Origin: Candidatus Endonucleibacter bathymodioli
GTDB taxonomy: Bacteria; Pseudomonadota; Gammaproteobacteria; Pseudomonadales; Endozoicomonadaceae
Assembly: GCA_030674915.1 (NCBI GenBank)
Contig: JASXSV010000011.1
Coordinates: forward strand, 50,778 to 114,777
Length of the DNA: 64,000 nucleotides
Direction of reading: 5' to 3'
Below are positions 1 to 55,412 of the stretch, one piece after another. Every line of letters begins with the position of its first letter. The first letter of the stretch is position 1. The notes under the pieces are model-generated. The model did no database searches, was not told the origin of the DNA, and saw only the letters and a program-made list of their open reading frames with translations. Made by a program: the position numbers and the translations under genes.

Positions 1-101
1 AAAGGTGTGAGCTTGCTTACTCTCCATGAACCTACGAACAGTAGATAATTGGAGCTAGTAAGAGCAACCAACAGCCCACACTTTCAAGGGTAATGGGTAT
101 A
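1..101 (-). repeat. Dispersed inverted-repeat element, copy 1 (cut by window start)
   Basis: Reverse-orientation copy. It keeps the central CATGAACCTACGA block, the AGAGCAACCAACAGCC block and the right terminal repeat ending GGGTATA at 101. It contains the stop codon of pgpA (84-86). Confidence 0.8.
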
Positions 102-2410: not shown

Positions 2411-3526
2411 TTACTTTGGGTAAATATAATCAACTATTTCAAGATTAAACCCTGATAAAGCCGAAAAGTGTGCCGGATAGTTCAGTAGTCGCATTTTTCC
2501 AACGCCGAGATCTTTTAATATTTGAGAGCCAATACCAATAGAATGATAAGCACAAGAGCTGTCGTCAGAGTTCTGATAGCGCTGCGTTTGAAAAAATCGC
2601 TCCACCTCTGTACACACATTAGGCTTTTCTTCTTGATCGAGAAGAATTATAACACCCACCCCCTCCTCGGCTATGGCCTTCATAGCTTGATACAAAGACC
2701 AATCCTGTTCACGCTCCTTACATTTTGCATAGAGTAAATCACGAAATACATCTACGATATGCAGCCTGACCAATACCGATGTTTCAAGGGTGAAACTGCC
2801 CTTGGTTATGGCTAGATGCTTGTCGCCTGACACCGTATTATTGTAGACCGTCATGTCAAATTGTCCAAACATAGTATCCATAGCTTGACAAGATTGCCGC
2901 TCAACGGTTCTTTCATTAGCTATACGGTAAGACACTAAATCAGCAATGGTGCCTATTTTTAGACCATGCTTTTTAGCAAAAGTTTCAAGCTCTGGTCTGC
3001 GAGACATGGTGCCATCGTCATTCATTATCTCAATAATGGCCGCCGCAGGCTTCAGCCCTGCCAGCCTGGTTAGATCACAACCTGCTTCAGTGTGACCCGC
3101 CCTAGTTAAAACTCCTCCTGATTTAGCTCGCAAAGGAAAAATATGCCCTGGCTGAACAATATCTGTTGATTTAGACCTAGAATCTACAGCGACACGAATA
3201 GTGCGAGCCCGATCTTGAGCAGAAATACCAGAAGTGACACCTGAGGCCGCCTCAATGGATATAGTAAACGGTGTACCAAAACAGGATTTATTCTTGTCTT
3301 CGACAACCATCGGAGGCAATCCTAAATGATCGCAATGTTCACCAGACAGGGTTAGGCACAGAAGCCCTCTACCCTCCTTAACCATGAAGTTAACTATTTG
3401 CGGCGTAATTTTTTCTGCAGCGACAATTAGGTCGCCTTCATTCTCACGCTTTTCGTCATCCATAATAATAACGGGCTTCCCAAGCCGAATATCTTCAATA
3501 ATGGCTTCGATAGAATTCAGCTGCAT
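2411..3526 (-). CDS. ribB: 3,4-dihydroxy-2-butanone-4-phosphate synthase with degenerate GTP cyclohydrolase II-like domain (RibBX type)
   Basis: Makes the four-carbon precursor of riboflavin from ribulose 5-phosphate. Residues about 1-200 are a complete RibB domain: [13 protein letters not shown], the GLLCLTLS strand, [17 protein letters not shown] DLTRLAG and the [17 protein letters not shown] motif. Residues about 205-371 align with GTP cyclohydrolase II but lack the zinc-binding cysteine cluster ([15 protein letters not shown] where the active enzyme has CLTGDVFGSxRCDCG). This matches the gammaproteobacterial RibBX class, in which the second domain is not a cyclohydrolase. A separate RibA must therefore exist elsewhere. 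GAGAGG seven bases before the ATG supports the start. Confidence 0.93.
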
Positions 3527-3765: not shown

Positions 3766-3882
3766 CATCCATTGACGGTATGAGACTATTGCCTAATCTC
3801 TCACCCCATAACCTATCGCCCTCAAAGTCATGAGGTTTCTATCGCCTGTCGCCTACTCACACCTCCAATGGTAGCGAGTATA
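3766..3882 (+). repeat. Dispersed inverted-repeat element, copy abutting an IS relic
   Basis: Forward copy with a clear right end (TGTCGCCTACTCACACC then TCCAATGGTAGCGAGTATA). It runs directly into the IS5-family relic at CTGCTGTTTCGCAAG. The same join of right end and CTGTTTCGC occurs at 63410-63460 and, on the minus strand, near 50640. Confidence 0.7.
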
Positions 3883-8357: not shown

Positions 8358-8485
8358 ATATGCCCGTTTCCATAGAAAGAGTGAGGTTATTGACCACTCT
8401 CACTCACCACAATCATCTACAACCAGCAGTCTGATAGGGCTTCGTCGTGCGTAATCTACTTACATCTTCAATGGCAACGAGTATA
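8358..8485 (+). repeat. Dispersed inverted-repeat element, recN upstream copy
   Basis: Nearly complete forward copy with both ends (left ATATGCCCGTTTCCATAG, right TTCAATGGCAACGAGTATA) and the internal GAGGTTATTGACCACTCTCAC block. It lies immediately upstream of recN. Confidence 0.8.
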
Positions 8486-8574: not shown

Positions 8575-8693
8575 TATACCAATTATCCGTGAAGGACAGA
8601 CTACTAACTACTCTCACCCGCCCCAATTACCTAACGCTCGTAAGCTCATAGGATTACTCTCACTAGCTGCCTACTCACATCTTCAATGGCAAG
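8575..8693 (+). repeat. Dispersed inverted-repeat element, lipase 3' copy
   Basis: Forward copy starting TATACCAATTATCCGTGAAG and ending CACATCTTCAATGGCAAGC. The right end contains the stop codon (8683-8685) and last two codons of the lipase gene on the minus strand. It lies only 89 bp from the preceding copy. Confidence 0.8.
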
Positions 8694-9945
8694 CTTTAGA
8701 TATATATCTCCCAACAGTTAAAGCTACAAGCAAAGTACAAATAGCTACTGGATACAAACATGACGCAGCACTTTCAGGGGCATACTTATGTGCATCAGGA
8801 TCAACCATGTTCTTTGACTCGAAATAAAATTTTCTGTAAATGCCACCATTAATTATGATAGCTATATAATTCTCACAGCTATGCATTTTACTACTCGCCG
8901 TAGCTAAGCCCTCAGTAATTGCGAAAGGAGTAGTTCTGTTCGAACCAAGATAAGATCCTATAAAAGAGGACAGAAAGATATTTATGTAACCTATTCTGGG
9001 TAGGCTTATCATAATACCTGCGTGCTTGTAATAGCCAAAGCTTATGTCAGACGATCGAGAAACAAAATCAAGAGGAGCAACAAGCCTGACGTACTGAGAT
9101 CCAAAGAAATTATCCATATCATCAGCGGTAGCGCTATCAAATAATGCTGGACCTCCTATTGATACAACATATAATCGGATGCGTGCAGTACAGGCTGAAG
9201 ATAAATTCAGATCTCGTCCAACAAACTTGGCAGTCAGTGCAGCCTTTGCTGCGCCAAGACTATGACCAGAAAAAATTATGTTGAGCTGTATATCCTTATT
9301 CGCAGCAATATCTTCCAAACTCGAAAAACTTTTTCCGCACACGGCAGACACCTGATCAGCAATGGCCATTTTCACATTATAGTATGATGACATGGCTGCC
9401 GTCACGAATCCTGCATGGGCCGATCCTTCGAATGGCGCAGGCAGCGTCTTTCTAAGGACATTCATATCGGTTGCAATACTGGACTCTGTCGCAGTAGTCC
9501 CCTGAAAAGCAACGAATACTGTTACGCTATTTACGTTCTGGCTTTTGTTTAACTTCACTGCAACAAACCCTGACTGTTCTGTTACCTCAAGCTCCATATT
9601 ACTCAAGTCCAAGCCAGCTAAAGCACCCTCTGTAAGTATGTGGTTCTGTGTGTATTTTAGAACGGGTCGGAAAATATTGGCCCCCTTAATTCCGACCTCT
9701 CCCTTAAATGATTGAAAGCTCCAACCTGATTCTCGGCCAGCACCGCTGTTAGCCTTTTCCGGATAATAAGCCCTTAAAGAAAAAATGAGCGATTGATGTA
9801 AATCATCAGGATTTAAAAACTTTAATGTTCTCTTTGTAGGTGCATCATCCCCACTGGCCACATTAGGATCGCTAGCTAATAATGGCATGGATATTAATGC
9901 CGAAGCGATGAGCACATTCAATATAGGTGCGTACTTTTTAAACAT
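8683..9945 (-). CDS. Secreted class 3 lipase-like protein with C-terminal membrane segment
   Basis: Alpha/beta-hydrolase of the lipase class 3 (Lipase_3) type, predicted to cleave acyl esters outside the cytoplasm. Residues 1-24 form a signal peptide (hydrophobic ILNVLIASALISMPLLA). Family signs in order: VFVAFQGTTATE (143-154), HAGF (177-180), nucleophile elbow GHSLG (227-231, Ser229), and probable Asp293 (APLDFVS) and His308 (YYKHAG). Residues 397-413 form a hydrophobic segment near the C-terminus that could anchor the protein. The final residues and stop codon come from the dispersed element at 8575-8693. Neighbours are accessory, so a host-lipid role is plausible but inferred. Substrate unknown. 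Confidence 0.8.
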   Translation of the reverse strand: MFKKYAPILNVLIASALISMPLLASDPNVASGDDAPTKRTLKFLNPDDLHQSLIFSLRAYYPEKANSGAGRESGWSFQSFKGEVGIKGANIFRPVLKYTQNHILTEGALAGLDLSNMELEVTEQSGFVAVKLNKSQNVNSVTVFVAFQGTTATESSIATDMNVLRKTLPAPFEGSAHAGFVTAAMSSYYNVKMAIADQVSAVCGKSFSSLEDIAANKDIQLNIIFSGHSLGAAKAALTAKFVGRDLNLSSACTARIRLYVVSIGGPALFDSATADDMDNFFGSQYVRLVAPLDFVSRSSDISFGYYKHAGIMISLPRIGYINIFLSSFIGSYLGSNRTTPFAITEGLATASSKMHSCENYIAIIINGGIYRKFYFESKNMVDPDAHKYAPESAASCLYPVAICTLLVALTVGRYISKACH

Positions 9946-11920: not shown

Positions 11921-12469
11921 GACGAATGCACCCTGTTTTTGGTCGAGGACGAAGCTCTTATTAATGTAGCATCCACCATGGCGCCTTTTGGAAGTGCAAG
12001 ACATTGTAGTTGCAAGTGCTCACTGACCGTAGCAAACAACTTGTTAGTCAATTGCTTACGCCCCAACAGGTGCCGAAATTTCAGGATAGTTGTTTCATCA
12101 AGCAACCGATCTTCGCACAGCTCCAATTTGACAAATCTTCTCATTGATTGAATTTCATACAGTGCGTCTTCCAGCATCGGATCGGATAATTGAAACCATT
12201 ATTGCATGAGATAAATACGCAGCATTGTTGTCAGGCAGATCGGCTGCCAGCTCCGACATCCACTTTTCGGGTAATGTGGCTCAATGATTGCTTCAAAGGC
12301 TGCCCAAAGAACACAGGATTCCATTTTCTCAAAAAATAACTCTTTTCGCATTTTGCGTTTTTTGGCTGCGTAACTGAGTAACGCAAAACTTTATTGCTTC
12401 ATTTTGGATAACCGCCTTGCCCATAGCGATGCTATTTTACCAGGTCCTAGAGACTCAATCAGAGACTCC
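11921..12469 (-). mobile_element. IS5-group element, internally deleted copy
   Basis: Minus-strand reading from 12408 gives MKQ*SFALLSYAAKKRKMRK, then [44 protein letters not shown] and LELCEDRLLDETTILKFRHL, ending VDATLIRASSSTKN. This is the N-terminal half of an IS5-group transposase (IS5 superfamily) with two stops. The right end TCAGAGACTCC at 12469 is followed by CTAA, a YTAR target site as expected for IS5. After SSTKN the sequence jumps at an AAAAAC microhomology to ACAGGGTGCA, which belongs to the 3' part of the element (compare 36292). About 430 bp plus the distal end are missing. Confidence 0.85.
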
Positions 12470-12660
12470 CTAATATAGAAGTATGGATAAGAAACAAGTG
12501 AGCTCACTCTCATTAACCTAAGAGTAACAGCCATATAGAAAGGATGACTGGGGTGATTGGGCTGATTTGTAGCAACCCTCAACCTCACTCTTCCAAAGGA
12601 AGTGGACGCCACCCTCTCCAAGGCACCTTTCCTTTCTCCAACTTTGTTTAGACACAATTT
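12470..12660. repeat. Degenerate dispersed element upstream of grpE
   Basis: Contains an inverted, diverged end (GCAACCCTCAACCTCACTCT then TCCAAAGGAAGTGG) similar to the half copy near 56690. The other end is not clear. No gene is supported here; the minus-strand open frame is in this element and the IS fragment. Confidence 0.4.
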
Positions 12661-13457: not shown

Positions 13458-13577
13458 TATATAATAGTTCCTATTGAAAATGTGAGGCTGTTGACCGCTC
13501 TCTACCACCTACGACTTGGATCATGAGGCTTTGTCGTTTGCAGCCTACTCATACCCTCTTCAATGGTAGCGCGTATA
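13458..13577 (+). repeat. Dispersed inverted-repeat element between grpE and dnaK
   Basis: Complete forward copy: left TATATAATAGTTCCTATTGA, internal GAGGCTGTTGACCGCTCTC, right TTCAATGGTAGCGCGTATA. It separates grpE from dnaK. Confidence 0.8.
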
Positions 13578-20382: not shown

Positions 20383-21552
20383 TTGACTAGGACAGCAATT
20401 TTAGCTTTGGAAGATGGTAGTATTTTCCAAGGCATCGCCATTGGTATAGATGGAGAAACCTGTGGTGAAATTATTTTCAATACATCCATGGTAGGATACC
20501 AGGAAATTCTCACCGACCCTTCTTATTCTCGACAGATTGTTACTCTTACTTATCCCCACATCGGCAACACTGGTACTAACATTATTGACCAGGAATCAGA
20601 ATCCGTCCAAGCTGCAGGCTTGATTATCAGAGATCTTCCGTTAATGGCCAGTAGCTGGCGCTGCACTCAATCCTTAGATGAATACCTTAAGTCCCATAAT
20701 GTGATAGCTCTTGCAGGCATTGACACCAGAAAGCTGACCAGAATTCTTCGAGAAAATGGATCTAAAAATGGTTGCATTTTGGCAGGAACAGCTATTGACA
20801 AAGATAACGCTATTATAAAAGCTCAAGCCTTTCCTGGGTTAAAAGGTATAGACCTTGCGCGAAAGGTCTCAACCACCAGCCAGTACACCTGGAAGGAAGG
20901 GGTATGGAATATTGAGTCCGATAGTTATCACGCCCCCACTAAGCATTTATGGAATGTTGTTGTTTATGATTTTGGCATTAAGCAGAATATTTTGCGAATG
21001 CTTGTTCAGAGAAAGTGCAGATTAACTGTGGTGCCTGCAGAAACGCCGGTAAAAGATGTTATTGCCTTAAAGCCTGACGGTGTATTCCTTTCTAATGGTC
21101 CAGGTGACCCAGAGCCTTGCATCTATGCCATTGAGGCCACGAAAGAGTTATTAGCTATGAAACTACCTATATTTGGTATTTGCCTTGGCTATCAGATTCT
21201 GGCGTTAGCGAGTGGCGCAAAAACAGAAAAAATGAAGTTTGGTCACCATGGAGCCAATCACCCAGTACAGGACCTAAATACTAAAAAGGTCATGATAACC
21301 AGTCAAAATCACAGCTTTTGCGTGTCAAATGACTTATTGCCTGACTGCCTGCGAGTAACACATAAATCTCTTTTTGACGGCAGTCTTCAGGGACTAGAGA
21401 GAATAGATACACCTGCTTTTGGTTTTCAGGGACACCCAGAGGGAAGCCCTGGACCCCACGATGCAGCTCTTTTGTTTGACCGATTTATCCAACTTATTGC
21501 GCACAGCAAAGCAGACAATCAAGACTTATCTCCGTTTCCATTGAAGTTGTGA
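20383..21552 (+). CDS. carA: Carbamoyl-phosphate synthase small subunit
   Basis: Glutaminase subunit that feeds ammonia to CarB for arginine and pyrimidine synthesis. The N-terminal domain is [13 protein letters not shown]...[19 protein letters not shown]. The class I glutaminase domain has [10 protein letters not shown], nucleophile motif GICLGYQIL and HPEGSPGP with the catalytic His-Glu. The start is taken as TTG at 20383: GGGGGGA lies five bases before it and it gives the family N-terminus MTRTAILAL. An in-frame ATG at 20371 overlaps the ribosome binding site. The last eight codons and the TGA come from a dispersed element (21527-21654), giving the unusual tail LSPFPLKL. Confidence 0.97.
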
Positions 21553-21654
21553 GTAGGCGGCAAACAAGCTAGCTTCCATTAGCCTGCCAGTAGCAGGTGA
21601 TTGAGGTAAGTGAGAGCAGTCAACAACCACGCATCCTCAAAAGGAATGGATATA
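21527..21654 (-). repeat. Dispersed inverted-repeat element between carA and carB
   Basis: Complete reverse copy, from TATCTCCGTTTCCATTGAAG to CAAAAGGAATGGATATA. It supplies the carA 3' end and fills most of the 148-bp gap before carB, 46 bp ahead of the carB ATG. Confidence 0.85.
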
Positions 21655-24700: not shown

Positions 24701-24916
24701 GTTGACATGATTGTTAACGGTGAGATAGCCTTCGTTGTTAATACTACGGATGGTAATCAGGCTATTTCTGACTCCTATACCATCCGCCATTCTGCTCTCG
24801 TCAATGATGTACTTTACACTACCACTATGGCTGGGGCTGAAGCGATTGCAAGGGCTATTGCTTTTGGATCAGAAAATACTGTCCGTCGACTACAGGATTT
24901 ATACCCGTCCCCATAG
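21701..24916 (+). CDS. carB: Carbamoyl-phosphate synthase large subunit
   Basis: Synthesises carbamoyl phosphate from bicarbonate, ammonia and two ATP. The 1071 residues form the usual tandem halves. The first half starts [23 protein letters not shown] with ATP-grasp [14 protein letters not shown], and the second repeats as [22 protein letters not shown] with [13 protein letters not shown]. The C-terminal MGS-like allosteric domain spans about 935-1071 ([16 protein letters not shown]). It is directly downstream of carA and separated by a dispersed element. The final codons YPSP and the TAG stop lie in another copy of the same element (24900-24928). Confidence 0.99.
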
Positions 24917-24928
24917 AAGGCGTGAGGA
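24900..24928 (+). repeat. Dispersed element, half copy at the carB stop
   Basis: TATACCCGTCCCCATAGAAG then GCGTGAGG is one terminal repeat. It carries the last codons and stop of carB; the body is missing. Confidence 0.7.
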
Positions 24929-24973
24929 TAAACACACAAAGTCCACTAAACCTGCGAGAGACACGTGATTATT

Positions 24974-25006
24974 GTGGGTTAAAGCAGGCAATAACCCCAC
25001 GTTTTT
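24974..25006 (+). terminator. Intrinsic terminator of carAB
   Basis: GTGGGTTA (24974-24981) pairs with TAACCCCAC (24992-25000) with one bulge, followed by GTTTTT. It lies 58 bp after the carB stop and ahead of greA. Confidence 0.75.
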
Positions 25007-25098
25007 AAAGTAGATTAGATATATTCCAGTACGATAGGCAGGCATACGTACCAAGGGCATTTTTTAGAATTTTTTGTATTGTATCAAGGTAAGAACAA

Positions 25099-25659: not shown

Positions 25660-25770
25660 CCAAATCTATAGGTGCTGACTGCTCTCACTAATCATCACAC
25701 CCAGCTGCTCGCAGGTTCATGGAGCTCCGTTCGTTTGTCGCCTACTCACGCCTTCAATAGTAACTGGCAA
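25660..25770 (+). repeat. Dispersed inverted-repeat element between greA and glgP
   Basis: Forward copy with a diverged left end. The internal GTGCTGACTGCTCTCACTAA and AGCTGCTCGCAGGTTCATGG blocks and the right CTACTCACGCCTTCAATAG are well kept. It lies between the convergent genes greA and glgP. Confidence 0.75.
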
Positions 25771-28285: not shown

Positions 28286-28406
28286 TATACCCGCTACCAT
28301 TGAAGGTGTTAGTAGACAACAAGAGAGCTAAGTCCCATGAACCTACGACAGGTGATTGGGTGAGTTATATTAGTCTACGACCTCTCGCCTTCAAGTGGGT
28401 GGGTAT
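28286..28406 (-). repeat. Dispersed inverted-repeat element upstream of glgP (well-preserved copy)
   Basis: This copy shows the family layout. The left end TATACCCGCTACCATTGAAG (then GTGTTAG) and the right end CTCTCGCCTTCAAGTGGGTG (then GGTATC) are inverted repeats of each other, about 27 bp long. Between them is a body with CCATGAACCTACGACAGGTG. The idealised family is TATACCC(A/G)TTACCATTGAAG plus GTGTGAG at each end in inverted orientation. With TATA at both outer tips, a TA target duplication is possible. Total length is 110-130 bp. Confidence 0.85.
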
Positions 28407-32183: not shown

Positions 32184-32306
32184 TGATACTCACCCCCCCA
32201 CCTGAAAGTGCGTGGGTGATTGGCTGTTGCCACTCACCCTAAACCACTACTCATGGATCTGTGCTTTACTTGTCACCTACCATCACCTTCAATGATAACT
32301 TGATAT
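32184..32306 (+). repeat. Dispersed inverted-repeat element downstream of the subtilase
   Basis: Forward copy with a moderately diverged left end (GATACTCACCCCCCCACCTG) and a clear right end (ACCATCACCTTCAATGATAA), 37 bp beyond the autotransporter stop. Confidence 0.7.
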
Positions 32307-32342: not shown

Positions 32343-35207
32343 TTAAAATTTAGTTCCGGCACTAAATAAAACCATAGTGTCGTTATTTCCAGAAATACTC
32401 CCATAGTCGACGACCCTCAAGATGTTCAGACGCATATAGTCAACAAATTCAGCACTCCAACTCAGTGCAAACTCATACTCAAAATGTCTTCCTTCCGGTG
32501 TGAAATCAACATCATATTCTTTAAACGTCATGCCCTGTTTATCAAAACCATTTGGCAGAGTGAGAGTTGCTGACCCCTGATCAAGCCGAAGAGGCTGACT
32601 AACAAATAAACCGTATTGCCAAAACTGGTCAATATCGCCAAGCAACCCTATGCTAAAGCTGTTGCTGGTGAAATTATTATTATAATTAAGTAAACCTCCT
32701 CCGTTTTCAGTATCTGTTTCCGAATAAAAGTAACTTAGCAATAAATTAATATTGTTACTTAACTGATAGTTCAGATTAATACCTGTTATAAATGTTTCGC
32801 TGCCATTATTGAAACCCCAAACTCCGGATCCGCTAGTGCCAAGTATAGAGTTGGCCTCATCGAGTCTGCCAACTTGAAGACCTACAGAGTAATTCCGACC
32901 ACTAATATCACTAAAAACTGGAGTATTAATCTGCATTATCATTGATTCGGTATCTAGCGAAGTGCTTCCAGTTAACTGACCTCGATCCTGCTCACTTTTG
33001 AAAAAACCTGAAGAAAAAGTGTAACCTCCTCCAAAACTGAGCTGGTATGTTATGCCTTGTGCGTCTTCATTGAACTGACTGTATGGAGAGTTAAATGCAG
33101 AGCTTATCGTAAGATCTGCCAATCCCGATGAGGATGCTCCAGACATTGCAAAATCAGTTCTAGGATTAAAAGATGTGGTGACGTCCACCTGACTATTTTT
33201 GCTGGTTTTATAACTGATACGATAACTTTTATTAACTTCATCATCCGATTTATAGGTCTTTTGAAATGTTTGAGTCAGAGACAGCTGACCATTATTAATA
33301 GCAATTGTATTTGAGTCAGCTTTCAGGCTGCGATCAAGATACTCCATGCTATTAACTCTGCTATCCTGCTGAGTAGCGTTACCAACGAGAGACGAGCCCT
33401 GATAAACAAAATCAGCCTGATCGTAAGAGTCAACCGCTACAAAGCTAACAGCAGAAAGAGTAGTCGCAAGCGAATCACCCATGACCGGGGATAAGCTGAT
33501 GCTACTGTCTTCTACATTGTGGCGCTCACCACTTGCGGTAACGATCTCAGCTGTACCTATTAGTGACGTTGCTGCATCAAGATCTATCATCCCATGACCA
33601 AAGACAGAATCCACACCTGCCTCTCCAAGGTCTGTGGCGGTAGTTAATACTCGGTTGACCACTGCTTTACTTAAGCACTGCTTGGCATTATATTGAGCGC
33701 TACCTTGATCACAGATATCTGATTGGGCATCGGAGTCTGGTAGTTTCAAGTTTGGAAATGCCCCCATAACTAGCGCAACACCTCCACTTACTATGGGAGT
33801 TGACATTGATGTTCCTGTTTTTTCAGCATACTCATCTCCAGGGACTGTGGAGTAAATATCATTTCCTGGTGCTGCAAGACAAAAGTCCTTTGCGTCTCCA
33901 CATGCGTGGGATAAGTCTGACAGTTCACCGTTGTTTTCCACATTGATGACCGCCAGCCATTGCCTGTCAATATCGTCGGCCATATCCGTTCCTGCGTAAA
34001 TTAGTGGCGCCATTGCCTGTATCCCGGCCTGGCTGGTTTCAGGATCATCATTTTTAGCTGAATGATTACCTGCGGCTACGATGCTAATGACGCCTTGTTT
34101 AAATGCCGCTTTGGCATCAGCGTACCTAGTACTGCCATCTACAGAAAACATAAGATTATTAATACTTTTCAGATCATCATGTGAGTAGTCTATTGTCTCT
34201 CCCACAGATGGCTCGCCTACAATATCGCTGGCAACTTTTCCACGCATACCATCAGCATCAGCATCTGATCCTATAGAGACACCTAAGCTCCTATTAACAA
34301 TGTGAGCACCATTGGATGATGCCCAGAGTAAAAGATCTGAAGTTGTAGGATATTGATCATCTTGACAACTTGGGTCAAAATTAGCGCAACCTGGAAGAAT
34401 AGTGGCATTGAAAGCAACACCATGCATACCAGAATCGTTTCTTTCTGCCGCAACGATACCAGCAACATGTGTACCATGAGTTTCTACGTCTTCACTCGCA
34501 TAATGGGTAGCACAATCATCATCACCAACACAGTTTTTAATAAGATTGTCATCTAGATCAGAATGAGAGTTGTCAACACCTGAATCAATAACAGCTACCG
34601 TTATACCATCCCCAGCAAACCCACGATTATTATCATTCCTGGCAGAGAGAGTATTGGTTAAGGCACCAAAAAGCCCTATCTCATTGTATGCGTCAAGATT
34701 CTTGTTATATTCCTCTGTACGAATGATAAATTCCTCATCATTACCACCACCATTGCCTCCACCATTGTCACCACCATTGTCACCACCATTGCCACCACCA
34801 TTGTCACCATTACCACTTACCATATTACTACTATCGTTGCTTTCAGATCTTGTCTTTGCTGCCACTGCAATAGTTAGCGCTGCCCCTCCTACCACAACTG
34901 CTCCAAGCCCCAAAGTACTGCTGGATAATATGGGAGCCAGTAGACCATCTATGAATGAAAAAGTAGATTGATAAGAATTATATTGTTTTTTTAAGTCATC
35001 ATTCTCACTATTCATATACAGACTTGGGATATTGATGTCTGTGAACGATTCTGAATAACACTCTTTTAGGTCATTTGTTTTTTTAATTTCATTACATGAT
35101 AAGGGCGCCACATAAAGCATAGGCACAGACCAAGAAGTATCATTATTTGCAAATGAGCTAACGCTAAAAAACGCAGTAATCACAGCCATACTAAGTTTGC
35201 TTAGCAT
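32343..35207 (-). CDS. Autotransporter subtilisin-like serine protease
   Basis: Predicted surface protease of the S8 family with a type V secretion barrel. The start at 35207 gives signal peptide MLSKLSMAVITAFFSVSSFA; ATG 35252 would add 15 polar residues. In this numbering: a hydrophobic segment (about 99-119), a Gly/Asn/Asp-rich linker (131-156), then the protease with Asp208 (AVIDSGVD), His244 (HGTHVAGI), oxyanion Asn381 (AAGNHS) and Ser467 (GTSMSTP). The C-terminal 270 residues alternate in beta-barrel style and end in Phe (LFSAGTKF). The protein has 954 residues. It sits with IS relics on both sides in the middle of the glycogen locus, suggesting later insertion. Substrate unknown; a host-directed role is inferred. 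Confidence 0.88.
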   Translation of the reverse strand: MLSKLSMAVITAFFSVSSFANNDTSWSVPMLYVAPLSCNEIKKTNDLKECYSESFTDINIPSLYMNSENDDLKKQYNSYQSTFSFIDGLLAPILSSSTLGLGAVVVGGAALTIAVAAKTRSESNDSSNMVSGNGDNGGGNGGDNGGDNGGGNGGGNDEEFIIRTEEYNKNLDAYNEIGLFGALTNTLSARNDNNRGFAGDGITVAVIDSGVDNSHSDLDDNLIKNCVGDDDCATHYASEDVETHGTHVAGIVAAERNDSGMHGVAFNATILPGCANFDPSCQDDQYPTTSDLLLWASSNGAHIVNRSLGVSIGSDADADGMRGKVASDIVGEPSVGETIDYSHDDLKSINNLMFSVDGSTRYADAKAAFKQGVISIVAAGNHSAKNDDPETSQAGIQAMAPLIYAGTDMADDIDRQWLAVINVENNGELSDLSHACGDAKDFCLAAPGNDIYSTVPGDEYAEKTGTSMSTPIVSGGVALVMGAFPNLKLPDSDAQSDICDQGSAQYNAKQCLSKAVVNRVLTTATDLGEAGVDSVFGHGMIDLDAATSLIGTAEIVTASGERHNVEDSSISLSPVMGDSLATTLSAVSFVAVDSYDQADFVYQGSSLVGNATQQDSRVNSMEYLDRSLKADSNTIAINNGQLSLTQTFQKTYKSDDEVNKSYRISYKTSKNSQVDVTTSFNPRTDFAMSGASSSGLADLTISSAFNSPYSQFNEDAQGITYQLSFGGGYTFSSGFFKSEQDRGQLTGSTSLDTESMIMQINTPVFSDISGRNYSVGLQVGRLDEANSILGTSGSGVWGFNNGSETFITGINLNYQLSNNINLLLSYFYSETDTENGGGLLNYNNNFTSNSFSIGLLGDIDQFWQYGLFVSQPLRLDQGSATLTLPNGFDKQGMTFKEYDVDFTPEGRHFEYEFALSWSAEFVDYMRLNILRVVDYGSISGNNDTMVLFSAGTKF
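34744..34813 (-). repeat. In-frame Gly-Asn/Asp tandem repeat in the subtilase gene
   Basis: Nine-base units related to GGTGGTAAT/GGTGGTGAC encode the (D/N)GG linker between the signal region and protease domain. The unit is a multiple of three, so copy changes would alter linker length without shifting frame. Confidence 0.7.
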
Positions 35208-35344
35208 GGATGGGCAAGTAAAGTATAATGGGTCTTTTTGATAATAAGTCACAATTATTTATCCAAAGTTGAATTAGATACTTTATATTCGGCAACAGTT
35301 CTGTTTTATTTAGTCGCGAGTTATTAAAGTTCTACATATACTAG

Positions 35345-36506
35345 GGAATCTTCTCATTGATTCAATTTCATACAGCGCGTCTTCCATCATCGGATCGGAT
35401 AGTTGAAACCATTGCTGCATGAGATAGATACGCAGCATAGTGGTCAAGCCGATAGGTTGCGCCCTCCAATACATCCACTTTTCGGGTAATGTGGTTTAAT
35501 GATTGCTTCAAAGGCTGCCCAAGGAACACAAGATTCCATTTTCTCAAGAAATAACTCTTTTCGCGTTTTGCGTTTTTTGGATGCCTAGCTGAGTGACGCA
35601 AAACTTTGTTGTTTCATTTTGGATACCTACTTGCCCATAGCGAGGCTATTTCACCAAATTTTGGAGATTTAATCAGAGATTTGCCAAATTGGAGCTGTGC
35701 GAAGATCGGTTACCTGATGAAACAACTATCCTGAAATTCCGCCACCTATTGGAGCGTAATCAATTGACTGACAAGTTATTTGCTGCGGTCAGTGAGCACT
35801 TGCAACTACACGGCCTTGCACTTTCAAAAGACACCATGGTAGATGCCACATTAATAAGCGCTTCGTCCTCGACCAAAAACGCCGAAGGCAAACGTGATCC
35901 TGAAATGCACCAGATACGTAAAGGAGATCAGTGGTTTTGGCATGAAGATCCATGTCTGTGCGGATGTGGATAGTGGTACTGCTCATACAGTAACAGTTAC
36001 CTCAGCCAATAAAGCGAATATTGGCGAACTGCCTACTTTGTTGAGAAAGGAAGACGAAGTAATCTTTGGCGACGCGTACACCAGCGACACATATAAGCGA
36101 GGCGCTCGATGCTTAGGATTACACTGGATAGTCAATGACAAGCGCAAACCAAGAAAAGGCAACCTAAGTAGCAGTATGCGCAAACGTAATCGCCAGCAAT
36201 CAAAAAATACGAGCCAGGGTAGAGCACCTGTTCCGAATCATCAAGTGTCAGTTTGGTTACCGTAAAGTTCGTTACCGTGGTTTGGAAAAAACAGGGTGCA
36301 AGTTATGAGCCTGATGGCGATGGGCAATTTATACCTGCAACGTAATGCGTTAACGCCATAATTGCGCCCTAAATCCGCCTCGAGAGCGGATAAATGGGCA
36401 AAAGCGACAAAATGAATCGAAAATTACGATAAAATAAGCGCGACAGTCAGAGAATTTTATCGCAAATCTGACAATCGACTTGCAAACCACTTCAATCAGA
36501 GACTCC
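35345..36506 (+). mobile_element. IS5-group element with internal inversion and frameshift
   Basis: The copy has both ends: GGA at 35345 and TCAGAGACTCC at 36506, flanked by CTAG direct repeats (35341-35344, 36507-36510), the YTAR target typical of IS5. The transposase is dead. Its first third is read on the minus strand (about 35348-35675), while the rest is on the plus strand from 35683: LELCEDRLPDETTILKFRHL, DATLISASSSTKN, RDPEMHQIRKGDQWF, then a frameshift to KIHVCADVDSGTAHTVTVTS and VIFGDAYTSDTYKRGARC. The plus-strand part continues exactly where the minus-strand part stops, so a ~330-bp segment inverted in place. Confidence 0.88.
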
Positions 36507-39030: not shown

Positions 39031-41232
39031 TTACTGATACGGTACCAGAATTACCGTTGCCAGTGGTGGCAAAGTCAGATTAAGGCTTTGTTCATAGCCG
39101 TGCTCCTCAATAGACTGCGCTTCTAAGTTGTCACCAACCAAAACGCCACTCCCACCAAAGTCAGCACTGTCAGTATTTAGCACCTCAGCGTAGCGCCCCG
39201 AATCAGGAACACCTATTCGGTAATTATTTCGAACGACAGGTGTAAGATTGTTAATTACGATAGAACACCGTCTTTTTTTATCGTACCGAGCAAAAGCAAA
39301 AACACTTTGAGAACTGTCATTAATTACAATCCATCTGAACCCGCCAGACTTTGTATCCAACTCATGCAACGAAGGAATATCACGATATATCTCATTCAGC
39401 TTTTTCACCAAAGTTTGAATCCCTTTATGCCTGCCATCACCCTGGTTTAGTAGCGACCAATCAAGACTATGATTGCAATCCCATTCATTATAAGTCGCAA
39501 TCTCTCCCCCCATAAATAGCAGTTTTTTACCTGGATGTGTAAACATAAATGCAAGGTAAGCTCTTAGGTTGGCAAAGCGCTGCCAGTCATCTCCTGGCAT
39601 TCTTGTTAACAACGTACCTTTACCATGCACTACTTCATCATGAGAAAGAGGTAATACAAAATTCTCACTCCATAGATAGACTGTGCTAAAGGTCATCTGA
39701 TCATGGTGATAACAGCGGTGAGCGGGGTCTTTTTTCATGTAATTTAAGCTATCGTGCATCCACCCCATATTCCATTTATAACCAAATCCCAAGCCCTGAT
39801 TGTACGTAAAATCAGATACCCCTGGCCAACTAGTGGACTCTTCCGCAATAGTTATTACATCGGGATGACGACTATATACTGTTTCATTGAAGCGTTTAAG
39901 CAATGCAATGGCCTCAAGATTTTCATTCCCTCCATGAATATTTTGCTCCCATTCTCCGTGACTACGAGAATAATCCAGATACAGCATAGAAGCAACGGCA
40001 TCAACCCTTAAACCATCAATATGAAACTCTTCCAGCCAATACAAGGCATTGCTTACCAGAAAATCATCAACCCAGGTTTTTCCAAAATCATAAATGCAAG
40101 CCTTCCAGTCTGGATGCCAGCCTCTTTTGAAATCTGGGTGCTCATATAAAGCAGTGCCATCAAAATTTACAAGTCCATGAGTATCATTAGGGAAATGGGC
40201 TGGCACCCAATCAAGAATTACTCCAACACCTGCCTGATGACACTGATCAACAAAATACTTGAAGTCATCAGGACTACCATAGCGACTAGTCGGCGCAAAT
40301 AGCCCCACAGGCTGATAACCCCAAGATCCATAAAAAGGATGTTCTGATATAGGCATCAATTCAATGTGGGTAAATCCCATGTTTTTTACGTAGGGAATTA
40401 ACTCACTGGCTAATTCCTGATAACTTAGGAAATCACCATTTGCATGCCGCTTCCAAGAGCCCGCATGAACCTCATAAATAGAAAAAGGTTGATCACATCC
40501 CTGTATATTTTTCCGATTTTTTAGCCAGTTAACATCACTCCAGCAATATTTCTCTCGATCATAGACAATAGAAGCTAGTCCAGGCCATTGTTCAATATAT
40601 TCGCCAAACGGATCAGATTTTAAAGGTAACCTGCGACCTTGCTGGTCATGAATTTCATATTTATACAGATCTCCAGCTACAACTCCGGGCAAAAACAAAC
40701 GCCAAATACCATCATTCGCGCTAGCCATTGGGTGAATACGACCATCCCAGTTATTGAAACTACCAATAACACTTACAGACGACGCATTTGGTGCATAAAC
40801 TCTGAACAATATCCCTGCAACGATACTCTTGGTATTAAAGTGATGTTCAAGCTTATGGGCTCCTAGATGTCGATAAAGTGCATTACTATCAACGTCATCC
40901 TGACTAAGAACATATTGACCAAATTGGTACGGATCAAAAGTTATGAAACGTTGCCCTCCTTTTAAACAAATATCTAACTGATAATTAAAACGCTTCCTCT
41001 TTTGACTGAGAATTAATTCAAAAACACCCTTCCCATCCGGAACCATTATCCCTAACAATTTCTTAGAGGAATGCTCCAGAACTCGAACAGTTTCAGCGTC
41101 AGGACGCCAGACTCTGATAACAAATCCTTTCTCAGTAGGATGGGAATGCAAGCCAAGCCAATCAAAAGGAGTGGCATATGACGCACAAGCAAACTTATTT
41201 ACAACAAAAGTGGGGATAGCAGTAGTATGCAT
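39031..41232 (-). CDS. glgB: 1,4-alpha-glucan branching enzyme
   Basis: Introduces alpha-1,6 branches into glycogen. It has two N-terminal carbohydrate/CBM48-like domains and then the GH13 barrel with HIELMPISEHPFYGSWGYQP, ILDWVPAHFP, DGLRVDAVASMLYLDYSR (nucleophile Asp), TIAEESTSWPG (acid/base Glu) and LSHDEVVHGK. I place the start at the ATG giving MHTTAIPTF (733 residues, matching the usual ~730). The frame stays open upstream to 41385, but its first codons (RTVNNLTPSRGI) are read from a dispersed element, so the longer form is artefactual. It lies 272 bp after glgA. Confidence 0.95.
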   Translation of the reverse strand: MHTTAIPTFVVNKFACASYATPFDWLGLHSHPTEKGFVIRVWRPDAETVRVLEHSSKKLLGIMVPDGKGVFELILSQKRKRFNYQLDICLKGGQRFITFDPYQFGQYVLSQDDVDSNALYRHLGAHKLEHHFNTKSIVAGILFRVYAPNASSVSVIGSFNNWDGRIHPMASANDGIWRLFLPGVVAGDLYKYEIHDQQGRRLPLKSDPFGEYIEQWPGLASIVYDREKYCWSDVNWLKNRKNIQGCDQPFSIYEVHAGSWKRHANGDFLSYQELASELIPYVKNMGFTHIELMPISEHPFYGSWGYQPVGLFAPTSRYGSPDDFKYFVDQCHQAGVGVILDWVPAHFPNDTHGLVNFDGTALYEHPDFKRGWHPDWKACIYDFGKTWVDDFLVSNALYWLEEFHIDGLRVDAVASMLYLDYSRSHGEWEQNIHGGNENLEAIALLKRFNETVYSRHPDVITIAEESTSWPGVSDFTYNQGLGFGYKWNMGWMHDSLNYMKKDPAHRCYHHDQMTFSTVYLWSENFVLPLSHDEVVHGKGTLLTRMPGDDWQRFANLRAYLAFMFTHPGKKLLFMGGEIATYNEWDCNHSLDWSLLNQGDGRHKGIQTLVKKLNEIYRDIPSLHELDTKSGGFRWIVINDSSQSVFAFARYDKKRRCSIVINNLTPVVRNNYRIGVPDSGRYAEVLNTDSADFGGSGVLVGDNLEAQSIEEHGYEQSLNLTLPPLATVILVPYQ

Positions 41233-41346
41233 AACTAAACCAGTGGTGATATTTTTAGAAATATCCCAACCCCTTTTTTTACAAAAACAATATAACCGAA
41301 GTGGTTGGAAATTCAAGGAGTAGTAAGGCATAAAGACCCTTAAACT

Positions 41347-41449
41347 TATACCCCTTGAAGGAGTGAGGTTGTTGACTGTTCTCACTAATCATAGGCTCAT
41401 TGAGCTTAACTCATTTATTGTCTTCCTACGCCTTAAATGGAAATGGGGA
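41347..41449 (+). repeat. Dispersed inverted-repeat element between glgA and glgB
   Basis: Forward copy with left TATACCCCTTGAAGGAGTGA, internal GGTTGTTGACTGTTCTCAC and a shortened right end. It creates an open extension of the glgB frame. Confidence 0.75.
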
Positions 41450-41504
41450 TTGCACTTTAAATACGATAGGCATGAAAAGATTTACATGCCAGGTGTGACC
41501 CCTA

Positions 41505-42953
41505 TTAGTCTATCGCACGATATAGCTCACAAAAAACAGCAGCAGCATTGTCCCACGTAAATGCACGATTCATAGCATTTCTCTGCATCTTCTTAAAAAC
41601 CTGAGGATTCTTATAAACGTCTAAGGCCTGATTCAGGCAGAGCAGGAGAGCGTGATCATTCGGCAAACTGAACATAAAACCAGTTCCTTGGTCCCCTAGC
41701 TCTGAGTAACTGTCTACTGTATCTTTCAAGCCCCCAACAGACCGAACCACAGGCAAACTTCCATATTTCAAACTGTACATCTGATTTAAACCACAGGGTT
41801 CAAAAAGAGAAGGCATCAGAAAGAAGTCACTTCCCGCCTCAATCCAGTGAGCCAAAACATTATCAAAACCATTGACAAAACGACATTTATCTTTATATAA
41901 CTCGGCAAAGAGCTGCAGATTTTTTGCTATACCTTCATCACCAGATCCGAGAATAATAAGTTGTACATCATTAGATAGGAAACTCTGCAAAGCAGGTATA
42001 AGATAGCTGAATCCCTTCTGTTCGGCTAACCTACTAACAATGCCAAACAGAGGTACTCCATCTTCAACAGGTAAGTTAAAGCGATCTTGCAGCGCGCACT
42101 TACAGACAGCTTTGCCATGCATTTCGTCACATGAAAAAAGCGCCGGAATTAGCTTATCGGTTTCCGGATTCCAGTATCTGTAGTCACAACCATTGAGGAT
42201 CCCAGAAAAATCACTATACCTGCGTCTGAAACTATCTACTAGACCGTGCCCTCCAATTTCAGTCATGAGCTCTTCTGCATAAGAAGGACTAACTGCGGTG
42301 ATGCGATCAGCAAACGCAATACCACCTTTCAGCAAGTTAATCTGATTATGATCCTCAAAACAGGCTGAATTAAAGTACCTCCAAGCAATACCTAAATTAT
42401 CGAGCTGATGACTATCTGTGTGCTGCTGATAAGCTGCATTATGTATTGTTAGTACCGATTTAGTTTTGTCAAAGAAAGAATTACAACATTCATCTGTTTT
42501 CAAGTAATAAGGTAGCAAGGCTGTCTGCCAGTCATGGCAATGAATAATATCAGGACTAAAATCCAATAACTGACAAGACTTCAATATTGCTTTACTAAAG
42601 AATGCAAACCTCTGACTATTATCACTGTAACCTTCACCATTCTGGGCATATAAACCTGGTCGATCAAAATAATCATGATGCTCAATCAAGTACACAGTCA
42701 CACCGTCAAGACAGCATTTTCGAACAGAATAACTAATATTGAGATAATTATTCATTACAACGCTACCAGAGACAACCTCTTCTGAATCAATATGACTCAG
42801 CGCCTCCCTATAGGCTGGCATCATGACACAGACATTATGGCCTTCTTTAACCATTGCTGAAGCTAAAGCACAAACGGCATCAGCCAAACCTCCTGTTTTG
42901 ACAATGCCTGCCAACTCAGAAGCAGCAAATACAATTTTCAGTTCAGACTCCAA
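41505..42953 (-). CDS. glgA: Glycogen synthase
   Basis: GT5 enzyme that elongates alpha-1,4 glucan using ADP-glucose. It has the N-terminal KTGGLADAV motif (ADP-glucose binding), HCHDWQTALLPYY, FGIVSRLAEQKGFSYL and LMPSLFEPCGLNQMYSLKYG with the conserved Glu, and 482 residues. The start is TTG at 42953, 11 bases inside the 3' end of glgC, implying translational coupling; no in-frame ATG gives the conserved N-terminus. Gene order glgC-glgA-glgB follows the synthesis pathway. Confidence 0.96.
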   Translation of the reverse strand: MESELKIVFAASELAGIVKTGGLADAVCALASAMVKEGHNVCVMMPAYREALSHIDSEEVVSGSVVMNNYLNISYSVRKCCLDGVTVYLIEHHDYFDRPGLYAQNGEGYSDNSQRFAFFSKAILKSCQLLDFSPDIIHCHDWQTALLPYYLKTDECCNSFFDKTKSVLTIHNAAYQQHTDSHQLDNLGIAWRYFNSACFEDHNQINLLKGGIAFADRITAVSPSYAEELMTEIGGHGLVDSFRRRYSDFSGILNGCDYRYWNPETDKLIPALFSCDEMHGKAVCKCALQDRFNLPVEDGVPLFGIVSRLAEQKGFSYLIPALQSFLSNDVQLIILGSGDEGIAKNLQLFAELYKDKCRFVNGFDNVLAHWIEAGSDFFLMPSLFEPCGLNQMYSLKYGSLPVVRSVGGLKDTVDSYSELGDQGTGFMFSLPNDHALLLCLNQALDVYKNPQVFKKMQRNAMNRAFTWDNAAAVFCELYRAID

Positions 42954-44166
42954 CTTTCATTCCTCTTGGTACAACAACAAGACCAGAGTCCGTAACCGTG
43001 AAACGCTTTCTGTCGTCCATAACATTTACACCAACTTTAACACCAGGCCCTATTTCAGCCCGCTTATCAATAATCGCACGGCGAATTTCTGCACCCTCAC
43101 CAATTACGACATTAGGTAATATCACAGAATCGGAAACACGTGCTAAATTATCCATTCTAACATTATAACCAATCACGGAGTGGTCCATAAAAATATCATT
43201 AAAAATACAACCATTACCTACCATAGAGTTAGTAATCTGCCCCGTTCGAACTCTCCGGTCATAAGCAATCAGCGCCGGCGGATAAGGCGGAATATAAGTA
43301 TTAATAGGCCACCTCTGATTATGTAAGTTAATCGGCGGTTTTGATGACAATAAATCCATATTAGACTGCCAGTAAGAGTCGGTAGTCCCAACATCTCGCC
43401 AATAACCATCATTATTATCACCCTGTATAATATTGGTGGTGAAATCATACACCATGACTTTGGCCCTAGGGTATAGAGAAGGAATAACATCTTTTCCAAA
43501 GTCGTGGGTGGAATCAACTATTTTATTATCAGCCTGCAGTTCTTTGATCAGGCAGCGACGATTAAATACGTAGTTGCCCATAGATGCCAAAACATAATTA
43601 GGGTTGCCAACCATGGTTTTAGGCCTGGAAGTTGGCTTTTCCTGGAAGCCAATCATCCGACCACTCTTATCCACCTCGATAACACCAAAGTTATGAGCTT
43701 GATTCACAGGTACCGGCACTGCAGAAACTGTCAAATCTGCATTATGTTTTTCATGGAAGGATGTCATCTGACGTACATCCATTTTATAGATATGATCACC
43801 ACCAAATACGCACACAATATCCGGCCTATGATAGTCTATATGATGCAAGTTTTGATAAATAGCATCCGCCGTACCTTGATACCAATCTTTTCCTGTCCAC
43901 ATTTGCGCAGGAAGCGTGTCAATAAATTTATCCGATAACCCTGCAATCCTCCAGCACCGCTGAATGTGTTTACTTAGGGAGTGTGATTTAAACTGAGTAA
44001 CCAGATATATTTTATGTAGATCAGAGTTAACAAAATTACTCAGTACAAAATCGATAATCCGATACTGACCACCGAATGGCACTGCAGGTTTGGCTCGGTA
44101 TTCGGTCATGGGAGCTAAACGGGATCCAGTCCCCCCCGCCAGTATCATGGATAGTACTGAGGCCAT
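42943..44166 (-). CDS. glgC: Glucose-1-phosphate adenylyltransferase (ADP-glucose pyrophosphorylase)
   Basis: Makes ADP-glucose, the committed step of glycogen synthesis. The nucleotidyltransferase domain shows ILAGGTGSRLAPMTEYRAKPAVPFGGQYRIIDF, WYQGTADAIYQN, VFGGDHIYKMD and GFQEKP with the substrate-binding Lys. The C-terminal left-handed beta helix follows (LPNVVIGEGAEIRRAIID). The protein has 407 residues. GGAG lies nine bases before the ATG. The 3' end overlaps the TTG start of glgA. The N-terminus is shorter than in E. coli, so regulator binding may differ. Confidence 0.97.
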   Translation of the reverse strand: MASVLSMILAGGTGSRLAPMTEYRAKPAVPFGGQYRIIDFVLSNFVNSDLHKIYLVTQFKSHSLSKHIQRCWRIAGLSDKFIDTLPAQMWTGKDWYQGTADAIYQNLHHIDYHRPDIVCVFGGDHIYKMDVRQMTSFHEKHNADLTVSAVPVPVNQAHNFGVIEVDKSGRMIGFQEKPTSRPKTMVGNPNYVLASMGNYVFNRRCLIKELQADNKIVDSTHDFGKDVIPSLYPRAKVMVYDFTTNIIQGDNNDGYWRDVGTTDSYWQSNMDLLSSKPPINLHNQRWPINTYIPPYPPALIAYDRRVRTGQITNSMVGNGCIFNDIFMDHSVIGYNVRMDNLARVSDSVILPNVVIGEGAEIRRAIIDKRAEIGPGVKVGVNVMDDRKRFTVTDSGLVVVPRGMKVGV

Positions 44167-51327: not shown

Positions 51328-51440
51328 TATACCCACTCCCCTTAATAGTGCTGGGCTGTTTGCTGCTTTCCACTAACCCCAAACTCTACTACTCGTATTC
51401 TCGTGGATACTCGCTCGTTTATCACTTTCAATTACCATAA
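51328..51440 (+). repeat. Dispersed inverted-repeat element downstream of smpB
   Basis: Forward copy from TATACCCACTCCCCTTAATA to ATCACTTTCAATTACCATAA, 13 bp after the smpB stop. Confidence 0.75.
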
Positions 51441-52315
51441 AAGGAGCAGGCATAGGTGATTATTAGGGGCGGATTACTTTCTGACATATTTTTCAAAGTA
51501 ACTGGAAATACAAAAAGAGGCACATAAGCCAGCCTCGACCTTACCAAACTGACTCCCTAACACAAATCAGTTCCTGTATAACTTTCTTCCACTAGAATCG
51601 TTTAGCGCATGATGAACTTAGAGCATAACCGACGACATACAGACCCGTTGATAAAGTATAAAATTCAGTGTTAACTGTTCTATTTCCAATTTGACGAAAA
51701 CGCCCCCCTTTCGGTAAAATACTGAGAGAGTTGCGTTTTACCTTGTAGACCTTGCGCCACGTCAGATTGTGGACATTATTTTTGGTTTCAAATTACGGAT
51801 TCAGGTAATAGTAATATAGTAATGAAGGTGAAAGAAATTGCATTTTTAAATATATCTACTATACTCACTCCCTGCGGATAAAGTGGTAAAGTGGTAAAGT
51901 GGTAAAACGCTTGAGCATAAGACATGAGAAAAAGCCACCCCAATACCCTGCAGCGTGGGGGAGAATACAGAGATATAGAGGTGGCCCATACTCTTTTTAA
52001 CGGCAAGAAATGGGATAACTATAATCTTGCCCTTGGAAGTATGAGTATACAGCAAGGGAACGCCCCCAGTGTGCCTAGTGGTGTATGCGCTTTGAACTTT
52101 TTTTGTATATCTCGCAAAGTAACCCATGCTCCTATACCCTAACTGGTTGGTAGCTACCTTGAAATGAGGCGTGTGCTCAACAGGCTCACACAGGTACGAC
52201 AAAAGGTGATATTCACCCTTGTTGATACTTTTTTAGAGAAATATAAAAAAATAGTGACCTACCCCTAATGCTTGGGCTATTATCACTTAAAATTACTAAC
52301 ACAAAAGGTTATTAT
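51441..52315. other. Intergenic region smpB to first barrel gene
   Basis: No gene supported; short frames on both strands have no motif. It contains a tandem octamer (AAAGTGGT, three copies plus partial, 51880-51906). Confidence 0.4.
51880..51906. repeat. Tandem octamer (AAAGTGGT)x3
   Basis: Three full units plus AAA; no coding sequence overlaps that I can support. Confidence 0.85.
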
Positions 52316-52960
52316 ATGAAAAAACTACTTATTGCATCGAGTTTGCTACTTTCCAGCTCAGTTATGGCTACTGGATTTTACGCTGGCGGTCAGTTAGGAG
52401 CTATCCACGGAAAGTCAGACTCTGCATTATCGTATCCTGCGCTCCCCCCCAACATCAGTGGAAGTAGCAGCAGCACAGACTTAACCTATGGTATTTTTGG
52501 TGGCTATCGATATGACCTAGATGGTTTTTTTATTGCTGGCGAGATAGCGATAGGCGACTCGAAATTAAAAACTGAAGACTCTATGTCTTTAAGGCCTGCA
52601 ATTCCTGTTGATATCACCATAGAGCGTACTCAGTCCAAGCCCTCAGCAACGATTAACCTTCTTGCTGGGATGCCCATTGCAGAATATACAGAAATATATG
52701 GCCGCTTAGGTTATACAGAAGCAGAGTTCACATCAAAAGTCACGGCTGGAATTGGCTCTCTTCCACCAGAAACCGCATTAGATTTTGTTAACAAACGGCT
52801 AGGGTATATCTTCGGGGGAGGAGCACAATATCATTTTGATGATCAGATCACTATGCGATTAGATTACCAATATATAACTTACAAAGACGACAACAATGGA
52901 CTCATCAGCCACACATCAGATAACCACATAGTTAGCTTGGGGGCACAATACAACTTCTAA
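52316..52960 (+). CDS. Small outer-membrane beta-barrel protein, paralogue 1
   Basis: Predicted 8-stranded barrel of the Opa/OmpA-transmembrane-like class. The signal peptide MKKLLIASSLLLSSSVMA is followed by TGFYAGGQLG. Later blocks shared with its paralogues are YGIFGGYRYDLDGFFIAGE, EIYGRLGYTEAEF, GGGAQYHFDDQITMRLDYQY and the terminal SLGAQYNF ending in Phe, the usual barrel-assembly signal. The variable stretches lie between these, where surface loops would be. The start is the ATG before MKKLL, with AAAGG upstream; the frame is open 16 codons earlier. 214 residues. Confidence 0.88.
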   Translation: MKKLLIASSLLLSSSVMATGFYAGGQLGAIHGKSDSALSYPALPPNISGSSSSTDLTYGIFGGYRYDLDGFFIAGEIAIGDSKLKTEDSMSLRPAIPVDITIERTQSKPSATINLLAGMPIAEYTEIYGRLGYTEAEFTSKVTAGIGSLPPETALDFVNKRLGYIFGGGAQYHFDDQITMRLDYQYITYKDDNNGLISHTSDNHIVSLGAQYNF

Positions 52961-54756: not shown

Positions 54757-55412
54757 TAACCCTCATCTTTTCTTAGTTTATTAAGAATAATAATTTTAGT
54801 CTAAAAAAAAAATATTGCTTCTTTATTTAATCAATAATCAAAATATTTTTTTACACTGCAAACATATGGAAATATTATCAAGCTTGTTTGATTGATTTTT
54901 TATTAGAATTCCTGAATACAAACAGTAGATTAGCAAGAGGGAATGACAGATTCTCCTAGTTAAACTGTACTATTGCACCACCTTACTTCTGTGAAATAAC
55001 TGCGATATCCTGACTTAACCTGACAGCCGATGCCTATAGCCATGATCAGCTCAGCAAGCTAATTTCAATGAACCAACTCACCATCAGTACATTCTGCAGG
55101 TACGCGCTCACTAATTGACAGACACACTGAGAATCTACACCTACAATCCTACAATCCTACAACGATATTACCCTAAATTAAAGGCGTGAGTAACCAATAA
55201 AAGAATGAAACTCCAGCAACCTCATGCTGTAGGTGATTTTGGTGCATGGAAGCAGGAAACGACCACACATCTACAATGGGAATTGGTATAAATAACCTCT
55301 GAAAACATTACCCTATCTTTATTCATAACCACCTCCTGTTAAATAAAACAACAATTCTTTTTTTATATACTACAATCCTAATTCTTAATAAATAAAAACA
55401 TGAGGCGTATTA
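54757..55412. other. Divergent promoter region of barrel paralogues 2 and 3
   Basis: AT-rich; contains one dispersed-element copy (55166-55290) and a short CTACAATC tandem repeat (about 55139-55160). No gene. Confidence 0.5.
55166..55290 (-). repeat. Dispersed inverted-repeat element upstream of barrel paralogue 3
   Basis: Reverse copy with left TATTACCCTAAATTAAAGGC, a centre with CTGTAGGTGATTTTGGTGCA and right end CTACAATGGGAATTGGTATA. Confidence 0.75.

Follow-up and report, generated by a model that had tools for sequence, protein, structure and literature searches.

We find that the stop codons of five genes (pgpA, carB, carA, slt and a class-3 lipase gene) in the window, by which we mean the whole stretch of 64,000 nucleotides that was analysed, lie 16, 17 or 25 nt inside copies of one repeat, which by its sequence belongs to the miniature transposons of the ERIC/IRU family. 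The explanation that we favor, and consider very probable, is that five copies of this repeat, likely inserted at TA dinucleotides within the final codons, the stop included, now supply the stops, and that no preference for stops is needed to account for them. Directly observed are the sequence kinship to ERIC, the terminal TATACCC repeats, the stops within the copies, an arrangement of carA, slt and lipase shared with a relative, the clustering of copies at gene 3′ ends and a number of stops that is compatible with chance.

Five gene ends inside one repeat

Four of the five genes enter the end of the element that we call A, and pgpA enters the other, B. The copy at carA (profile search, 21528–21653, plus strand) gives the C-terminus DLSPFPLKL with the stop at 21550–21552, the copy at carB (24901–25021, plus strand) gives LQDLYPSP with the stop at 24914–24916, and the copy at slt (61468–61600, plus strand) gives SSKPFPLKK with the stop at 61490–61492, the latter two copies also being found by profile search. 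The lipase, whose product has a Lipase_3 match (E 2.2e-14), ends in YISKACH, its stop (8683–8685, minus strand) lying in a profile-matched copy at 8576–8699 on the minus strand. At pgpA the copy is cut by the window start (22–100, plus strand, nhmmer, model positions 47–126) and turns its B end toward the gene, which ends FIYTHYP with the stop TGA at 84–86 on the minus strand; reading of the sequence and the ends of homologues assign YTHYP and the stop (84–101, minus strand) to the element. An earlier note on this DNA had claimed that the repeat supplies the stop and tail of these five genes and that the element ends carry stops in several frames. All five tails and their coordinates proved correct when the sequence was read again, the stops sit inside profile-matched copies, and two frames stop within the terminal repeat. 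The note had also put the likeness of the PFPLK tails of CarA and Slt down to the element. The DNA at slt does match the element (58 bits), but Slt relatives have PLPL where the window protein has PFPL (e.g., P0124), so that part of the likeness could look native at the protein level.

Comparison with homologues indicates what the insertions may have cost. Among 120 listed PgpA homologues, including the query's own entry, the last residue is number 156 in 23 and number 157 in 75; as YTHYP begins at residue 157, 98 of the 120 end just before it or at its first residue. The protein has thus gained 4–5 residues, as would be expected if the element had gone into the stop codon's TA or into an adjacent codon. 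The 39 CarB relatives printed mostly read LQDLH followed by 0–12 further residues, where the window protein reads LQDL and then YPSP, its native last few residues having been replaced. CarA is about 13 residues longer than most of 120 aligned homologues. Tails of Slt relatives are highly variable and the length of the replaced native end cannot be read from them, and for the lipase the native end was compared with a single relative, that in the genome G006 described below. It would appear that little native protein has been lost at the PgpA, CarB and CarA ends. That every copy went into the TA of the stop codon itself can be rejected, as this predicts the frame YTxxx and carA, carB and slt use another.

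Identity of the repeat

The repeat is 126–128 bp long, and the profile built from full-length copies (126 nt) reads, together with the flanking TA, TATACCC...GGGTATA. Its consensus folds into an imperfect palindrome of –69.2 kcal/mol (z –11). The profile matches all five outside loci that were fetched, two from E. coli, two from Vibrio and one from Enterobacter, the E-values, from a search confined to these loci, running from 5.5e-16 to 1.2e-24. The four E. coli and Vibrio loci align over model positions 1–125, 1–126 or 2–126, with 72–73% identity over 128 positions and E-values of 1e-18 to 1e-24, and the Enterobacter locus aligns over positions 6–103 with 67% identity. By blastn with E up to 10, a match was found in 5,375 of 5,426 E. 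coli genomes (best 9e-9), with 80% of the consensus covered at no place; the full-length fit to the E. coli repeats comes from the profile and from global alignments. Fifty plasmid records also match, of which 30 are named Escherichia and the others Klebsiella, Salmonella, Vibrio, Proteus, Yersinia, Enterobacter and Pantoea. The ERIC2 primer agrees with the consensus in 19 of 22 positions, whereas 1,000 shuffles reached 16 at most, and the ERIC1R primer, without a shuffle control, agrees in 16 of 22. The outside loci are presumably ERIC on the strength of these primer sequences and of papers, their records carrying no annotation at the repeat. No Rfam family matches the repeat at gathering scores.

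With ERIC (also IRU or RU-1, 127 bp) the repeat shares its length, imperfect palindrome, TA ends, sequence and an open frame running through the element. One difference is of known range and not of structure: ERIC is known from Enterobacteriaceae and Vibrionaceae, whereas the window and G006 are Endozoicomonadaceae-like. TA stands at both ends of the copies, and because the repeat's own end starts with TA, a target duplication is indistinguishable from TA ends belonging to the element.

The same gene ends in a relative

The CarA and Slt proteins point to Endozoicomonadaceae, and the protein nearest to the window Slt (80% identity) is labelled Candidatus Endonucleobacter; the source of the window is likely a bacterium living as a parasite in the nuclei of deep-sea mussel cells. 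Insertion sequences make up 10–11% of the Endonucleobacter genome according to PMC11521996. For comparison we sampled a Ca. Endonucleobacter genome, G006, as 100 stretches with 1.98 Mb readable and 20,000 bases N, in which 747 copies and 1,194 genes were called. This copy load also sets the repeat apart from ERIC, for which the quoted numbers are 30 copies in K-12 and 711 in Photorhabdus (as given in PMC10969869). Identity between the window and G006 is 93% for CarB, 87% for both CarA and PgpA, 80% for Slt and 47–48% for the lipase, and on these proteins the two are likely different species of Endonucleobacter. Among 37 genomes searched around that of L001 (blastn, E up to 0.01) the repeat was matched in 10, and the genome of L001 itself has a single 16-base match (E 0.6).

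At carA, slt and the lipase gene of G006 a copy occupies the position and has the orientation that it has in the window, but the tails have changed: SPFPLKL in the window and YSKNL in G006 for carA, SKPFPLKK and RPVTIEEVSRRGTNEAP for slt, where the G006 stop is reached in another frame, and ISKACH and YNSYHNLKV for the lipase. A conserved added peptide is thereby rejected, since the tails differ between the two species in length, frame and sequence. The carB gene of G006 shares TTTATACCC with the window and ends LQDLYPH; the profile finds no copy within 850 bp downstream, and on reading there are copy-like pieces about 95 nt downstream. At the G006 pgpA end (L121, near 3304–3429) a high-scoring copy with its A end first abuts an apparent remnant with its B end first, which the profile does not report, and we would guess at a second insertion into the junction TA.

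Stops within copies compared with chance

In the G006 sample, 40 stops lie inside copies. Six of these are in copies without an intact facing end and were excluded; in the remaining 34 the gene runs in across an intact end, A in 28 cases and B in 6, and for 29 of these (25 A, 4 B) the stop lies at least 10 nt deep. Random insertion at TA would be expected to give 12.0, 17.1, 27.9, 38.4 or 52.2 such stops if the stop codon plus the last 0, 2, 5, 8 or 12 codons tolerate insertion. With a tolerance of five codons, a value that was chosen and not measured, the 29–34 stops observed in 1,194 genes are near the approximately 28 expected, and no preference for stops as such is needed. The earlier note had suspected an insertion preference for, or survival at, gene ends and proposed a genome-wide count; run on the G006 sample, it came out close to the result that the note itself had said would speak against the idea. 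In the window 5 of 36 genes have their stop in a copy (expected 0.4–1.6) compared with 29 of 1,194 in G006 (Fisher p 0.002), a comparison biased by the window having been picked for this feature and on which we place no weight.

Clustering of copies after genes

Copies are mainly intergenic in G006, 15 of the 747 lying wholly inside a called gene. The other 732 were used for tests of placement, with the copies themselves removed from the distances. Within 20 bp of a gene 3′ end there are 118 of the 732, where random TA sites give 25.5 (SD 4.9; maximum 46 in 1,000 simulations), and within 20 bp of a 5′ end there are 33 against 26.5 expected. The excess persists when the stop-holding copies are excluded (92 of 692, 23.7 expected). 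When each copy was instead moved to a random TA in its own gap, 3′ ends had 115 copies against 67.2 ± 5.6 and 5′ ends 32 against 45.6 ± 5.8. Taking the profile score as a stand-in for age, such that low-scoring copies are likely old and high-scoring ones likely young, the same control gave for scores below 70 bits 78 copies within 20 bp of stops against 44.3 ± 4.7 and 17 within 20 bp of starts against 32.3 ± 4.6. For 70–100 bits the figures were 25 against 13.8 ± 2.4 at stops and 8 against 7.8 ± 2.4 at starts, and for at least 100 bits 12 against 9.0 ± 2.2 and 7 against 5.6 ± 2.1.

The weak bias among the youngest copies together with the loss beside starts among the oldest favors survival, and we hold survival to be a likelier cause of the clustering after stops than target choice. 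A tolerance of repeats downstream of genes has been proposed for pneumococcal repeats by Croucher et al. (PMC3049150). The middle score class is as enriched as the oldest, which weakens an account in which the 3′ excess simply grows with age. The middle class, which has the 3′ excess without a deficit at starts, leaves room for an alternative that we regard as unlikely, namely that the transposase or its choice of target favors gene 3′ ends and the clustering reflects insertion rather than survival. Young copies do exceed random TA sites near 3′ ends (12 within 20 bp against 4.1), and the flanks of insertion sites in G006 prefer TNTANA around the TA. Yet the young copies show no clear bias once they are compared within their own gaps, weighting the TA sites by the flank preference changes the placement result little, and stops as such are not hit in excess. 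The earlier suggestion of insertion preference for, or survival at, gene ends stands as regards the accumulation at 3′ ends, for which survival is the somewhat better fit; a special preference for stops is not supported.

Orientation and possible effects on mRNA

All three frames entering the consensus A end are stopped within about 55 nt, so that a gene running into it gains roughly 5–17 residues. Of the 29 G006 genes, 25 run into the A end and 4 into the B end, or 20 against 4 when clustered to 24 loci (p 0.0015 against equality, 0.013 against 3:2). The ratio of 25:4 includes deeper B stops and becomes 25:2 if depths of 10–60 only are taken, and two of the four B-end cases are low-scoring ORFs. 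Intact ends are nearly equal in number in G006 (648 A, 663 B). In high-scoring copies 94% of frames are stopped within 60 nt from the A end and 9% from the B end, the values for other copies being 77% and 60%; in young copies a frame entering at the B end is stopped late or never. The shorter tails at A ends explain the skew in part only.

This skew could suggest that copies are kept because the element, once transcribed, adjusts how stable the upstream mRNA is, as has been reported for ERIC in Yersinia, where the effect depends on orientation (reviewed in PMC2229807). Between genes on the same strand, 217 copies lie with the genes and 164 against them (p 0.008), although by score class this is significant in the middle class only (42 versus 20). 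As the hairpin is no better preserved in copies at gene ends than elsewhere, we consider such a role doubtful. It would be a still longer step, and an improbable one in our estimate, to suppose that ERIC-like elements have turned into the standard gene ends of Endonucleobacter, the A end with its stops in three frames being selectively kept facing upstream genes, such that a former transposon sets how many housekeeping genes are translated and how their mRNA decays.

The earlier note had also raised a possible use of the element as a stop-plus-terminator cassette. That such a cassette is selected, gene ends keeping it because its hairpin ends transcripts, is an idea that the very stable fold of the consensus and the position of copies just after stops could seem to favor but that folding, terminator scan and T-run counts do not support and that we regard as very improbable. 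Folded in the direction of the gene, the carA copy is more stable than most shuffles (z –2.4), but the other stop-supplying copies of the window, with the cut pgpA copy left aside, gave z +0.7, –1.2 and –0.6. Among 544 G006 copies with both ends, hairpin energy for a given score was independent of nearness to a stop (p 0.69; fit on copies below 100 bits). A scan of the window outside 40001–44000 found no terminator-like site (GC-rich hairpin plus U-run) in any of the five copies that supply a stop; elsewhere in the window four copies overlap one, in one case at its edge only. Runs of TTTTT are rarer in copies (0.86 per kb) than in their flanks (5.96).

Mobility and comparison with known repeats

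There are 37 matches to DDE_3 transposases in G006, many of them fragmentary. The best-kept IS630 copy (L142) starts TATACCCAAGTGTATTGAAGATGC, its left end reading TATACCC, 6 nt, ATTGAAG; two further IS630 copies differ from it in the outer bases of the left end. In all three the right end begins with TATACCCAAGTGAA, which reads TATACCC, 6 nt and then AYTCAAR. The consensus of the repeat starts TATACCCGTTACCATTGAAGGTGT, with TATACCC, 6 nt and ATTGAAG like the left end of the L142 element. Based on these similar ends, we infer that an IS630-family transposase would mobilise the repeat. Copies would land at TA sites in the last codons or the stop codon; misplaced copies would be lost and those at gene ends, where little harm is done, would survive. 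The tails would then be tolerated by-products that drift between species.

In high-scoring copies one reading direction is open for 42 codons in 74 of 84, and all 15 copies inside called genes of G006 lie in the open-frame orientation. Nine of these 15 read-through ORFs were scanned: six belong to transposase or integrase-core families (one below the cut-off), one matched HTH_38, one had a weak HTH match and one had no match, and none of the nine was a housekeeping gene with an internal in-frame copy. We note that an IS630 transposase frame reads through a copy between LPPY and SPNLNP (L222, 889–2118, in G006, a place that L155 contains too), and also in L150. Rickettsia palindromic elements, short palindromes that according to a review add peptide to host genes, resemble the repeat in that respect, but they are internal in-frame inserts in conserved genes, whereas the internal in-frame copies here are mostly in transposases (six of the nine scanned).

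Several other repeats share features with the one described here. MITEPlu5 of Photorhabdus, ERIC-related and present in hundreds of copies, is tied by its ends, with CCC near the terminus, to the IS630 elements ISPlu3, ISPlu8 and ISPlu19 (PMC6267812); it differs in its 123 bp, and stops in gene ends are not mentioned in the part of that paper available to us. RUP of Streptococcus pneumoniae (107 bp) has a TA target and IS630-Spn1-like ends and is frequent in IS elements, but it has stops in all six frames (PMC2229807), a comparison made by description only. Of 58 coding sequences that overlap BOX repeats in S. pneumoniae, 36 have their extreme 3′ end, with the stop, inside the repeat (PMC3049150); BOX thus also supplies gene stops but is a modular repeat of another family, likened here by its description. 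ERIC copies at gene 3′ ends that replace the normal stop have been described in enterobacteria (Delihas, 2007; PMC2759123). Stops supplied by ERIC and BOX repeats are accordingly already published, and it appears to be the host lineage that is new; the literature on miniature inverted repeats and MITEs, a search that did not cover ERIC by name, yielded no report from Endozoicomonadaceae.

The finding adds to the hosts of ERIC a lineage made up of marine symbionts and parasites, in which the copies may be denser than in Photorhabdus. The comparison with random TA insertion also provides, in worked form, a null model for repeats that contain gene stops; it helps in distinguishing survival from a choice of insertion site, and it shows that an unusual C-terminal tail in a genome of this kind calls for no explanation by function.

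Other copies and repeats in the window

The end motif CCNTTGAAGGTGTGAG occurs 26 times in the window with up to 3 mismatches, where shuffles give 1.42, and profile searches find 21–25 copies depending on model and threshold (25, 22 and 21). Besides the five at gene ends, nhmmer places copies with both ends at 3766–3881 and 8360–8484 (both minus strand) and 28287–28406 (plus), one with a single end at 25670–25768 (minus), and further copies at 12479–12605, 55177–55289 and 61883–61985 on the plus strand and at 13466–13576, 32194–32299, 41348–41450 and 51329–51446 on the minus strand. Beside the copy that starts at 12479 lies one member of a repeat pair of about 330 bp (12134–12465 and 35347–35679), 80–92% identical in three pieces. 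An ORF at 32343–35252 contains a tandem 12-bp repeat (like CACCATTGTCAC) at 34736–34807, and three paralogous genes at 52316–52960, 55413–56063 and 57390–58007 encode products that start alike, like MKKLLIASSLLLSSSVMATGFYAGGQ.
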